A DNA stretch of 64,000 nt, taken from Bacteroidota bacterium. Lineage in GTDB: Bacteria > Bacteroidota > Rhodothermia > JANXDC01. Shown here in pieces: positions 46,820 through 50,420 of the stretch. The position numbers and the translations under genes were made by a program. The stretch lies in contig JANXDC010000015.1 of the NCBI GenBank assembly GCA_025059945.1, positions 62,001 through 126,000 of the forward strand, written 5' to 3'. The notes under the pieces were generated by a model that saw only the letters and a program-made list of their open reading frames with translations, had not been told where the DNA came from and ran no database searches. How positions within the stretch are numbered: the stretch's first letter is position 1; each line of letters starts with the position of its first letter.

Positions 46820-46854
46820 AAAAAGGTGACGGGGCCCATGGGGGCCCCGTCACC
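46820..46854 (-). terminator. Strong terminator of the ECF-sigma envelope operon
   Basis: A perfect 13-bp stem, GGTGACGGGGCCC (46825-46837) with GGGCCCCGTCACC (46842-46854), 4-nt loop; on the minus strand followed by TTTTT (46820-46824). It lies 33 bp after the last gene of the operon. Confidence 0.85.
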
Positions 46855-46887: not shown

Positions 46888-47343
46888 TCATAGGTCGGGG
46901 TGTTGAAGAAGCCGTTCGCGCAAAGCCCGTAGCCTCGCCTCTAGCTCCCGCACCTGCCGCTCCAGGGCCTCTAGTTCGGCCTCCGGGTCCCTTCGGGGGT
47001 CATTGAAGCGTTCCAGTCGGAACCGGATCTCGGGCAGGCGCAAGAAGATCGAATCATCCCGCTCAAGCCGAAAGCGAGGAATCCAGATGCGCCGCTCAGG
47101 CCTGTAGAACCATAGCCATCCCAATAGGCCGTAGCGCCACTCGGTCTTGGGTAAGATCAAGACTCGCTCTCCGGAGTCGAGCCGAAAGGCGACCACGCCG
47201 TCTGGGTCGGGTTTAAGCTCGCGTCCATTGAGCCAGATGCGGCCCTCTTGGATGCGAATCGTATAGGCGCGTGCGCTCACGGTGTCGGAATCGGCGTGCG
47301 CCGTAAGCGCTAAGCCTAAAAACAAGATCGCCACAGAGGTCAT
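46888..47343 (-). CDS. Secreted coiled-coil protein, sigma-operon member 5
   Basis: 151 residues from ATG 47343, with AGGAGG 9 nt upstream. Signal peptide MTSVAILFLGLALTAHADSD. A beta-rich domain contains IQEGRIWLNGRELKPDPDG (from about residue 31), resembling VRNGRAYINGHEAVPGAIPEG in the 233-residue protein two genes upstream. The C-terminal 40 residues (EAELEALERQVRELEARLRA) form a predicted coiled coil. No known family was recognised. It is the last gene of the operon, 13 bp after the barrel gene and before a strong terminator. Confidence 0.75.
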   Translation of the reverse strand: MTSVAILFLGLALTAHADSDTVSARAYTIRIQEGRIWLNGRELKPDPDGVVAFRLDSGERVLILPKTEWRYGLLGWLWFYRPERRIWIPRFRLERDDSIFLRLPEIRFRLERFNDPRRDPEAELEALERQVRELEARLRALRERLLQHPDL

Positions 47344-47356
47344 CTTTACCGGCCTC

Positions 47357-48682
47357 CTATTGCAGGATGATCTGCACCCCACGTCCGCTGGTGCTTCCGA
47401 ATCGGGGATTGACCACGGCGGTGTAAATCGCCCCAAACGTATAGGTCAACCCCAGGTTGATCCAGTAGTGGTAATGCGTGGCCAACTGCCGCTGGCGCAG
47501 CAAAACCTCCTCCTCTGTTGCCCCTCGCCTAGGAAGGGAGAGTTGGTCTTGGATCCACGAGAGCCTGCCCGAAAGGTCTAGGCCCAGGCCTTTGAGCAGG
47601 CGTAAGTTGACGGATCCCCAGAACGTGAGCCTTCGCTTGCCCCAATCGTGGAAGTAGTTTAAGCCCTCTACAGAGGCGCTCGCAGAACCCCAGGGCTCTC
47701 GGAACTCCAGGGCCAGCGTAAGGTGCTGCGCCCAAAGCCCCTCCGCCGTTTTGCCGAAGATCGTCTCCTCCCGGTATCGGCTCCAGCTTGGCCCCACCCG
47801 GTAGAGGATGCGAAACTGCCGTCGGGTGGCCTCGGCGTAGGGAAAAAGATTGTATTCGAAGGCCGGTTTGAAATCCACGCTCCAGGCGAGGTTGTTGAAC
47901 GTGGAGCGCGCAAGACCGGCAAACGCTCCTGCGGACCCATGCGAGCCTAGACTCCGCACCAAAAGCGCGTTAACGCTCTGGCTCCAGTTCGTCGTCCTCA
48001 GGTCTCGGCCGCCCAACTTGAAGAGGCTCCAGCCATGGTTGTAGGCTACCGTGAGCGTAAACTTCCAATCCGGCGTGATGTGGCGCGCCGAAAGCGCACC
48101 GTAGTAGTTCGCGTATCGCTGGGATTGCTCCCCGCTGAAAAACCCGTTGGCCGATAGGCTAAAGACCCAGTTCTTCCAGCGATCCCTGGGAGGTGCGGGG
48201 TTCGTGGCATCCGAGGGGGACTCATGGACGAGCCGCAGTTGGTCCGCTATCGGGGTGCGGGCCGCATAGCGCGTCAGGCCCAGGCGCAGCATTTGCGCCA
48301 GCTTTCGGCGTTCCGTGTCGGCTGCGCTCTGAGGTGGCAGGGCGAAACGAAGCGTATCGAGAAGGCCCGCAAAACGGCGCCGCCCTTGAAAGGTGAGCGT
48401 GTACGCTACGCCCCCCGCTCCGGTCGGTTGTGTGGTTACCAGCACGTACACCTCTGCTTGCGCCGGATCCCGCACGTAATGCACAAAGGCCACCTGGGTT
48501 TGGATGTAGTCTAGGTCGCAGTGCCCGCCTGGACAGTCGACATAGACCTGGGGGGCCTGCTGCGACGCGCCCACAGACCTACTAGCTGGGGGCTGAGCGT
48601 GCAGGGGCTCGTGTGCTAAAACCGCGGCCCCAAGCAGTACACATGCCCCACAGCGCGCATGCTGGCTCCTACTCGCCCCCAT
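47357..48682 (-). CDS. Putative outer-membrane beta-barrel protein, sigma-operon member 4
   Basis: 441 residues with AGGAGG 8 nt before the ATG. Signal peptide ends near Ala29-Gln30 (EPLHAQ). An N-terminal domain has PQVYVDCPGGHCDLDYIQTQ, VAFVHYVRDPAQAEVYVLVT and YTLTFQGRRRFAGLLDTLRF, a recurring pattern in uncharacterised proteins of Bacteroidota and Gemmatimonadota as I recall them. From about residue 170 alternating amphipathic strands (WKFTLTVAYNHGWSLFKLGG, RLTFWGSVNLRLLKGLGLDL, HYWINLGLTYTFGAIY) indicate a barrel. Overlaps the preceding gene by 14 bp. Confidence 0.78.
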   Translation of the reverse strand: MGASRSQHARCGACVLLGAAVLAHEPLHAQPPASRSVGASQQAPQVYVDCPGGHCDLDYIQTQVAFVHYVRDPAQAEVYVLVTTQPTGAGGVAYTLTFQGRRRFAGLLDTLRFALPPQSAADTERRKLAQMLRLGLTRYAARTPIADQLRLVHESPSDATNPAPPRDRWKNWVFSLSANGFFSGEQSQRYANYYGALSARHITPDWKFTLTVAYNHGWSLFKLGGRDLRTTNWSQSVNALLVRSLGSHGSAGAFAGLARSTFNNLAWSVDFKPAFEYNLFPYAEATRRQFRILYRVGPSWSRYREETIFGKTAEGLWAQHLTLALEFREPWGSASASVEGLNYFHDWGKRRLTFWGSVNLRLLKGLGLDLSGRLSWIQDQLSLPRRGATEEEVLLRQRQLATHYHYWINLGLTYTFGAIYTAVVNPRFGSTSGRGVQIILQ

Positions 48683-49370
48683 TTCGGCGTCCTCCTAGGA
48701 GCTCCCGCAGCCGACGCTCGATGATCTGCTCGCGCAGTCGCTGGCGTTCTTCTAAAGTTCGATTGAGGCGCTCTAGCTCCTGTTGCAGGCTTTGGATCTG
48801 TCGTTGGTACAGGCGTTGCTGAAGCTCAAAAAGCTCGTTTAAGTGGTTGCGCAGGCGCCCCTCAAGGGCCCGCACCTGCTCGGCCGGAATCTGGTTCGCA
48901 TACGGCTCCCCAAGCAGCCGATGATACCGGGCCAGTAGCTGATCCAGCTGCACTTCCAGGGCCTGCATCTGCGTCTCCCAGGCTTGTAGGCGGGCCCTCT
49001 GAGCGGCTAGCTCTTGCTCCGGAATCTCTTGTCCCAGTAGGCCGGGTCCAAACGGAAAGGGGTTGACGAAACGGGCCCGGGGGCTTGCGCCCTCCAGGGC
49101 CTCTGCCGGCCGTAAGCGGCCGTCCACCGAGAACGCCCAGCGCCTGCCCCCGCGATCCGTGAATATTCCCCAGCTATTGGGTCCTGCGAGCACGATGCGA
49201 ATGCCGTTCAAACCCCTAAGGTCCAGGCCCTCGGGTATCGCCCCTGGAACCGCTTCATGGCCGTTGATGTAGGCCCGTCCGTTGCGCACCTCCAGGCTGG
49301 CGCTTTGGCCGCGGGCCAAGGTCGCGGCCCACAGGATCGCGCCTAGCGCCCAAACACACGAACGCCTCAT
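48669..49370 (-). CDS. Secreted coiled-coil protein, sigma-operon member 3
   Basis: 233 residues from ATG 49370, with AGGAGG about 10 nt upstream. Signal peptide MRRSCVWALGAILWAATLAR. Beta-rich domain at about 25-90 (LEVRNGRAYINGHEAVPGA, GIRIVLAGPNSWGIFTDRGG). Residues 115-225 are a long heptad-type coiled coil (AAQRARLQAWETQMQALEVQ ... LQQRLYQRQIQSLQQELERL). It shares the GRxxxNGxE motif and overall plan with the 151-residue protein at the end of the operon. Its ATG overlaps the stop of the membrane protein gene upstream. No known family recognised. Confidence 0.75.
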   Translation of the reverse strand: MRRSCVWALGAILWAATLARGQSASLEVRNGRAYINGHEAVPGAIPEGLDLRGLNGIRIVLAGPNSWGIFTDRGGRRWAFSVDGRLRPAEALEGASPRARFVNPFPFGPGLLGQEIPEQELAAQRARLQAWETQMQALEVQLDQLLARYHRLLGEPYANQIPAEQVRALEGRLRNHLNELFELQQRLYQRQIQSLQQELERLNRTLEERQRLREQIIERRLRELLGGRRNGGE

Positions 49371-49756
49371 GGGATGGACTCCTCCTGCGCACTTTGCACT
49401 TCTTGGCTTACCACCTGCTGCATCCAGACGATCTGATGCTGCACCGTTTGTAGGCGGGGTTGCAGATGGAGGCTGGGGTAATCCCACTCTAAAAGCTCAG
49501 GCCTTGTGAGGGGGTCAAGTGCCTCCGGGTTCTGGGTCCTTAGCGCGATTTCGTTGCGGGGATAAAAACGCCACCAAGCGGTTCCCGCGGCGATCGCCAG
49601 GAGCGCGGCGGCCACTAGGCGCACCCCCCAGCGACGCAAACGCCGGATGCGAACCCGGTGTCGGGCCGCCTGCCGCAACCCTTCTAGAAGCTCCGGCGGA
49701 GGGGACCAGGTGGGCGTCGCCCACCGGCGCGTCCAGTCAAAAGGCTCACAGGACAT
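49367..49756 (-). CDS. Single-pass membrane protein, candidate atypical anti-sigma factor
   Basis: 129 residues. About 44 cytoplasmic residues with an arginine-rich stretch (RHRVRIRRLRRWGVR), one membrane helix (LVAAALLAIAAGTAWW, about 48-62) and an outer-side tail of 65 residues. Its position right after an ECF sigma gene (11-bp overlap) is where anti-sigma factors lie, and the topology fits. However there is no HxxxCxxC zinc motif, and the cytoplasmic part is short for a known anti-sigma domain. The anti-sigma role is inference from context. Confidence 0.65.
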   Translation of the reverse strand: MSCEPFDWTRRWATPTWSPPPELLEGLRQAARHRVRIRRLRRWGVRLVAAALLAIAAGTAWWRFYPRNEIALRTQNPEALDPLTRPELLEWDYPSLHLQPRLQTVQHQIVWMQQVVSQEVQSAQEESIP

Positions 49757-50318
49757 AGCTCCGTTGCACCCGCTCTCGAAGTTTGCGCACCGCGTAGTGC
49801 ATACGCGCCAGAACCGTGTTCAGAGGGACGCCGAGCAATTCGGCGATTTCTCGGAAGGAAAGCTCCCCGTAGAGCCGCAGCAACACGACCTCGCGCTGGG
49901 GATCCGAAAGCTCCTCGATCCACCGCCGCAGGAGCGCCTCTTGCTCCTGGGCCTCAAGCGCCTCCAGCGGATCCGGTTCCTCCGCGCTGAGCTCCAGCTC
50001 TTGGCCGTCTTCTTCTCTGCACACCTCGGCCGACGTGGCCCGCGGGCCCGTGCCGTTTCTGCGCCAATGATCCACCCACACTCGGTAGGCGATGCGCAGC
50101 ACCCAGGGCAAAAAGCGCCCCTCATGGCGGTACTGCCGAGGCAGGGCCTCAAGAACGCGCAGGAAGGTCTCTTGAAACAGATCTCGGGCCGTCTCCGCGT
50201 TTCCGCTTCGCCAGCGCAGGAAGCTGTAGACCCGGTCCCCATAGCGCTCCACAAGCGCACCGAAGGCCCGCTCATCGCCGCGCTCTACGTAGGCCCGAAT
50301 CAACTCGGCATCGCCCAT
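49746..50318 (-). CDS. ECF-type RNA polymerase sigma factor
   Basis: 190 residues. Region 2 at about 18-88 (ALVERYGDRVYSFLRWRSGN, DLFQETFLRVLEALPRQYRH, GRFLPWVLRIAYRVWVDHWR) and region 4 at about 125-182 with the helix-turn-helix LSFREIAELLGVPLNTVLAR. A linker of about 40 acidic residues separates them. Region 3 is missing, as in all ECF sigmas. First gene of a five-gene operon whose products lie in the inner membrane, periplasm and outer membrane, so it likely answers an envelope signal and may control its own operon. Divergent from the second plsY. Confidence 0.93.
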   Translation of the reverse strand: MGDAELIRAYVERGDERAFGALVERYGDRVYSFLRWRSGNAETARDLFQETFLRVLEALPRQYRHEGRFLPWVLRIAYRVWVDHWRRNGTGPRATSAEVCREEDGQELELSAEEPDPLEALEAQEQEALLRRWIEELSDPQREVVLLRLYGELSFREIAELLGVPLNTVLARMHYAVRKLRERVQRSYVL

Positions 50319-50347: not shown

Positions 50348-50357
50348 TAACGCGTTA
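50348..50357. promoter_or_regulatory. Palindrome between the ECF sigma gene and plsY2
   Basis: TAACGCGTTA, a perfect 10-bp palindrome in the 102-bp divergent gap. It could be an operator or part of an ECF promoter. I could not assign -35/-10 elements for either gene with confidence. Confidence 0.3.
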
Positions 50358-50420
50358 AAGCTTCGTTTTATTGTACGGAGATGCGGTATTTTTCGATCGC
50401 GTACAAGGGGCAGGGCCGCC

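Follow-up and report, generated by a model that had tools for sequence, protein, structure and literature searches.

An extracytoplasmic function sigma factor operon of a Rhodothermia bacterium as a predicted control unit of outer-membrane protein biogenesis

The stretch of DNA analysed here, referred to throughout as the window, comprises 64,000 nucleotides of a Bacteroidota bacterium of the class Rhodothermia (assembly GCA_025059945.1, contig JANXDC010000015.1, positions 62,001 to 126,000). On its minus strand lies a five-gene operon that encodes an extracytoplasmic function (ECF) sigma factor, a single-pass membrane protein, an outer-membrane barrel, and two secreted proteins of a family that we call P3. 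The features of the locus are as follows.

46888-50318, minus strand: whole five-gene operon; all five open reading frames (ORFs) confirmed at these positions
50349..50373, minus strand: predicted autoregulatory promoter CAATAA-N15-CGTT, in the gap that separates the sigma gene from a divergent plsY-like gene, 31 bp 5' of the sigma start
49746..50318, minus strand: ECF sigma factor P0001, 190 amino acids (Pfam Sigma70_r2 and Sigma70_r4_2, above cut-off)
49367..49756, minus strand: single-pass anti-sigma protein P0002, 129 amino acids, assigned by orthologue alignment and a weak match to an NCBI anti-sigma model
48669..49370, minus strand: P3a, the secreted protein P0003, 233 amino acids (AlphaFold, family alignment, sigma-gene neighbourhood)
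47357..48682, minus strand: outer-membrane barrel P0004, 441 amino acids (AlphaFold, Foldseek)
46888..47343, minus strand: P3b, the second secreted P3-family protein P0005, 151 amino acids (alignment, hhalign)
46825..46854, minus strand: intrinsic terminator, a 13-bp stem followed by TTTTT (RNA fold z = -4.4)

A preliminary description of this DNA, made from the sequence alone, had reported gene overlaps of 11, 4 and 14 bp followed by a 13-bp gap. These figures are exact, given the chosen starts, and the 13-bp-stem terminator that it listed is real. In a sister species (G001) the five genes occur in identical order with 46-71% identity, placing the layout beyond chance. Searches of Pfam and NCBIfam gave a curated-family hit above cut-off for the sigma factor alone, and P0002, P0003, P0004 and P0005 yielded nothing significant in Pfam, NCBIfam, PADLOC or PDB sequence searches. 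An Rfam scan returned only tRNAs.

P0001 consists of the sigma2 and sigma4 regions only, as the definition of an ECF factor demands (Pfam), and its group forms a clade separate from the genome's remaining ECF factors (tree support 100/99). Of 345 genomes sampled from the phylum, 167 have the group, mostly as a single copy per genome, and 51 have a match to the P3 profile. This profile was built from a curated alignment; an iterated hidden Markov model drifted into unrelated ORFs and was dropped. Of the 41 genomes compared, 39 carry the P3 match on the strand of the sigma gene and 0.5-2.3 kb downstream of it; of the remaining two, one has P3 on another contig and in the other the sigma gene is missing from the list. 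Wherever it was read, the gene between sigma and P3 encodes a single-pass membrane protein. Several families carry two consecutive P3 genes (P3a and P3b), and the Balneolales-like families (f2, f4 and similar) possess the sigma and anti-sigma genes only. Outside the class, 11 loci of families f24 and f42 display the same sigma/anti-sigma/P3 order, and the 11-bp overlap recurs in many of them. As judged from gene order, the conserved unit is the sigma factor, the single-pass anti-sigma protein and P3, often with a second P3. The whole set of five genes is ruled out as a conserved unit, given that the barrel sits inside the operon only in the genus under study. The preliminary description had proposed a five-gene system and had named a sigma factor found without the other genes as evidence against it; this is partly what we observed, because the barrel is unlinked elsewhere, and only the sigma/anti-sigma/P3 core of that proposal is conserved. 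Cotranscription with the anti-sigma gene and autoregulation are both apparent at the level of sequence, from the overlapping genes and the conserved upstream promoter. In several families the core is followed, downstream of P3, by a gene identified by eye as an AMIN-domain-like N-acetylmuramoyl-L-alanine amidase (L118, L127, L129, L136, L142).

The promoter emerged from dyad counts over the 260 bp of sequence preceding each of 32 sigma orthologues. CAATA-N16-CGTT was found upstream of 18 of the 32, compared with at most four for any dyad in three shuffle sets. The consensus in the class is RCAATAA-N15-CGTT[A/T], and outside it, at 9-10 of the 11 f24/f42 loci, ACAATAA-N14-CGTT(T/A). The site at 50349..50373, unseen in the preliminary description, is the only exact match in the window. 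When set against the hallmark ECF promoter, which has AAC at -35 and CGT at -10 (PMC8103513), the CGTT fits the -10 element and the CAATAA at -35 lacks the AAC.

Exact sites occur three times in the genome under study: at the operon, before degP, and inside a gene. In the sister species the operon and degP sites recur, their spacers diverged, and a further site is intragenic. The degP product is a Do-family endopeptidase (490 bits, above cut-off). Across 20 other genomes of the class the exact pattern was found 61 times, as opposed to 42 times for a reversed control, or 49 versus 16 after dropping three AT-rich genomes with many control hits. Beyond the operon, such sites lie before bamA (L174, L203, L201), bamD (L180), a surA-like gene (L178) and degP (L189, L219), with degP carrying the promoter in the genus under study and in family f7; the identities of the DegP, BamA and BamD targets all lie above curated cut-offs. 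As an independent test, a position weight matrix was built from the sigma-gene sites alone and applied to target upstream regions at p <= 0.01. Hits were obtained upstream of bamA in 14 of 22 genomes from nine families, for which the binomial P of 3e-23 is overstated because the genomes are related. For degP, 5 of 30 copies were hit, and none of nine second copies. Among the bamA loci read, several have skp-like genes next and rseP nearby, and an RseP homologue above cut-off is also encoded in the genome under study. The full target set (operon, degP, bamA, bamD, surA-like gene) is assembled across genomes, not all being found in one. The E. coli sigma-E regulon includes degP, bamA (yaeT), bamD (yfiO) and surA (PMC2215328, PMC8103513), and on the strength of its DegP, BamA, BamD and SurA-like targets the predicted regulon is therefore sigma-E-like.

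Two further sets of promoter sites were recorded. In three genomes (L209 in G031, L210 in G025, L214 in G325) the promoter precedes a second ECF sigma gene, the orthologue of one in the genome under study (G000:C4:384948), which makes a sigma cascade possible. In four f7 genomes it lies upstream of genes for secreted proteins of the GLPGLI family (Porph_ging; L187, L188, L215, L220).

The anti-sigma protein P0002 comprises a 43-residue cytoplasmic part, a transmembrane segment at about residues 44-60, and a periplasmic tail in which W91 and W111 are invariant in the class alignment. With a loose threshold (E up to 0.1), the NCBI anti-sigma model matched 14 of 15 family members, the best at E 3e-10, below the model cut-off. 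The orthologues are consistent with a four-helix anti-sigma domain before one transmembrane segment; P0002, with 43 residues before its segment, is not. In class I anti-sigma factors, sigma4 is bound by the first three helices (PMC7406223), and these are what P0002 lacks, retaining a helix-4-like stretch only. The preliminary description had singled out the missing zinc motif. That motif, HxxxCxxC, is indeed absent from P0002; it is, however, patchy among the orthologues, being present in 5 and absent in 6 of the 11 f24/f42 proteins and absent also from the class members seen, and so is not the key oddity of the protein. The real oddity, as far as alignment can tell, is the loss of the entire three-helix sigma4-binding bundle. 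Because this bundle is gone, the sigma factor is probably held mainly via one helix in this genus. The f24/f42 proteins retain an [LI]xW[DE]-like periplasmic motif followed by a helix; by this alignment evidence the periplasmic Trp-Asp/Glu tail is deeply conserved and is kept by P0002. At three loci (L122 in G336, L150 in G227, L147 in G007) the gene after sigma encodes from two to about five tandem cytoplasmic anti-sigma modules ahead of one transmembrane segment, the modules ending in a PxRPxxxVLxAVxAAA-like helix.

P0003 was modelled as a beta domain (residues 23-101) followed by a helical hairpin (118-230; AlphaFold, predicted local distance difference test (pLDDT) score 83) and has the C-terminal motif RxxIIExRLxELLG in the family alignment. 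Both secreted proteins bear the GRxxxNGxE motif, as GRAYINGHE and GRIWLNGRE. P0005 matched P3a of the sister species (E 5e-5), and kinship was also evident from hhalign profile comparison; aligned with P3b of families f6 and f7, it is a shortened P3b particular to its genus, without the C-terminal ELLG motif. The suggestion of the preliminary description that the two are paralogues is thus upheld by the shared motif and the profile comparison, and conservation of the pair extends to other families. A Foldseek search with P0003 gave only coiled-coil matches at chance level, and no His, Cys or Met occupies an invariant or nearly invariant P3 column in the family alignment. The N-terminal beta domain of P3 is also found in secreted proteins of about 400-480 amino acids encoded away from the sigma gene (L161, G038:C126, 3061-9289; L162, L163, L164), and one genome has four of these consecutively.

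The barrel protein P0004 has an N-terminal alpha/beta domain and a 12-strand barrel (AlphaFold, pLDDT 84). In Foldseek comparisons it groups with OmpG/FadL, with TolB among the matches; the modelled TolB link is only suggestive because the template modelling scores are low. The gene lies inside the operon, between P3a and P3b, only in its own genus (G000, G001). Elsewhere the family is widespread, its genes standing alone, beside BlaI/BlaR1-type genes, or in tandem pairs. Within the class, the matrix test used for bamA and degP detects the promoter before only 1 barrel gene out of 37, which rules out the barrel as a general promoter target there; outside the class, 2 of 4 unlinked barrel genes have it. 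An effector role is likelier for the barrel than that of a sensor.

Some barrel-family neighbourhoods deserve separate mention. Genes for a BlaI/MecI-type repressor and a BlaR1/MecR1-type M56 peptidase adjoin the barrel gene at seven loci (L042, L046, L048, L064, L068, L069, L074), an arrangement that suggests a second mode of regulation for the family. In Aminicenantes metagenome genomes (L031, L033) two diverged members of the barrel family stand in tandem, and in G019 (L066, 4803-7660) a further ECF sigma gene, together with an anti-sigma-like gene, comes immediately after a barrel-family gene. The hit L071 in G007, large and barrel-like, was considered as a fused anti-sigma protein and set aside, since a signal peptide is present and an anti-sigma part is lacking.

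Taken together, these data make it likely that the operon is an autoregulated control unit of an outer-membrane protein (OMP) biogenesis stress response working like sigma-E. The evidence, all of it read from sequence, is the co-encoded sigma factor, anti-sigma protein and P3, the promoter, its targets, and their conservation. At rest, the sigma factor would be held at the membrane by the anti-sigma protein, and P3a, a chaperone-like hairpin protein, would guard or read the periplasmic Trp-Asp/Glu tail. Unfolded OMPs or envelope damage would occupy P3, whereupon the anti-sigma protein would be cleaved, an RseP homologue being present, or would change shape. The freed sigma factor would then raise DegP, the Bam machinery, P3 and, in this genus, the barrel, which may have been added there as an effector or sentinel. 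The envelope-sensing sigma system suspected in the preliminary description is strongly supported by the predicted regulon of degP, bamA, bamD and surA-like genes; signalling from barrel to sigma factor, the other half of that proposal, is conjectural.

Several observations weigh against the sigma-E-like reading. The sensing role of P3 is conjectural and is the main weak point of the mechanism. Balneolales-like genomes possess the Trp-Asp tail without P3, so that P3 is not needed for the tail. P0002 itself matched the NCBI anti-sigma model at E 0.009 only, which is not significant. The overall excess of exact sites over the reversed control is modest, and bamA in the genus under study has no promoter site, so that the regulon here is known only as the operon and degP. 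A more specific proposal, that P3 represents a new class of periplasmic OMP-assembly sensor that releases a Trp-Asp/Glu-tailed anti-sigma protein, with the barrel of this genus as a sentinel OMP and the sigma factor held by a one-helix anti-sigma domain, is tentative and on balance doubtful.

The gene order, which covers inner membrane, periplasm and outer membrane, could also be taken to mean that the barrel is an integral outer-membrane sensor whose signal reaches the anti-sigma protein by way of the two coiled-coil proteins, as a split-gene version of the Bacteroidales barrel-bearing anti-sigma factor. A single polypeptide with a C-terminal barrel is known from Phocaeicola (PMC9308784), and outside the class the promoter again ties the barrel family to the sigma factor (2/4). 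We nevertheless regard this as unlikely, since the sigma/anti-sigma/P3 core occurs without the barrel in every other family, barrel genes of the class go without the promoter (1/37), and regulon membership suffices to account for the link. Slightly less probable again is a role of the sigma factor in general or starvation regulation, with envelope genes as incidental targets. The sites before GLPGLI-family genes and the second ECF sigma gene fit such a role, as does a flavobacterial ECF-type motif with CGT at -10 that low nutrient levels induce and that has a link to genes for secretion (PMC9723704). The targets that recur across families are, however, OMP-assembly and periplasmic-protease genes, and the one intergenic site of this genome outside the operon is that of degP.

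Domain content led us to reject two other readings. In the first, the system would be a CnrYXH- or ZraP-like sensor of a metal or ligand, with a metal-binding hairpin that switches a short anti-sigma protein. The short cytoplasmic segment, which resembles that of CnrY (PMC4598750), would accord with this, and ZraP (3lay) is among the weak Foldseek matches of the hairpin (E ~2). That match is not significant, the conserved P3 columns are devoid of His, Cys and Met, and no metal-efflux genes were among the promoter targets found, leaving this reading very improbable. FecI/FecR-type surface signalling, with the barrel as a TonB-dependent transducer, shares with the operon a co-encoded sigma factor, single-pass protein and barrel. 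It is scarcely credible, given that FecR, plug and TonB-receptor domains are absent from the five proteins and their families, and that the barrel has about 12 strands instead of 22.

In the open-access literature text we found no sigma-E-like system described for this bacterial branch, and OMP-assembly surveillance outside Proteobacteria is poorly known. The sigma-E-like reading places three unnamed protein families in a functional setting, and one anti-sigma domain is seen with zinc, without zinc, and reduced to about one helix. The conserved promoter, the core regulon of operon, degP, bamA and bamD, and a partner family that is as yet uncharacterised make reporter and binding tests feasible.

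Among known systems, the closest from the same phylum is the Phocaeicola barrel-bearing anti-sigma factor (PMC9308784). This sigma/anti-sigma pair and EcfO of Bacteroides fragilis, described in the same work, likewise join an ECF sigma factor to inner- and outer-membrane parts in envelope stress; in Phocaeicola, however, anti-sigma protein and barrel form one fusion, whereas here the genes are separate and all other families do without the barrel. In CnrY-CnrX-CnrH (PMC4598750) the cytoplasmic portion of the anti-sigma protein is likewise very short and the partner in the periplasm is helical, but P3 shows no metal-ligand conservation and the targets differ. With class I anti-sigma factors, both zinc-associated (ZAS) and zinc-free (PMC7406223), the orthologues share an N-terminal helical domain before one transmembrane segment; P0002 differs in having only a helix-4-like stretch in its 43-residue part, and the Trp-Asp/Glu tail is a signature of its own. 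The RpoE-RseA-RseB system is matched in the membrane-bound anti-sigma protein, the periplasmic partner within the operon, autoregulation, and the predicted regulon of degP, bamA, bamD and surA-like genes, and also in the presence of an RseP homologue, RpoE being released through cleavage by DegS and RseP. The differences are that P0001 belongs to another ECF group (TIGR02939, 66.1 bits against a cut-off of 236), that RseA and RseB domains are absent from the operon (Pfam, NCBIfam), that the promoter is CAATAA-N15-CGTT, and that the hairpin partner is an unrelated protein. On this comparison of sequences, the operon is predicted to work like sigma-E from outside the RpoE/RseA/RseB family.

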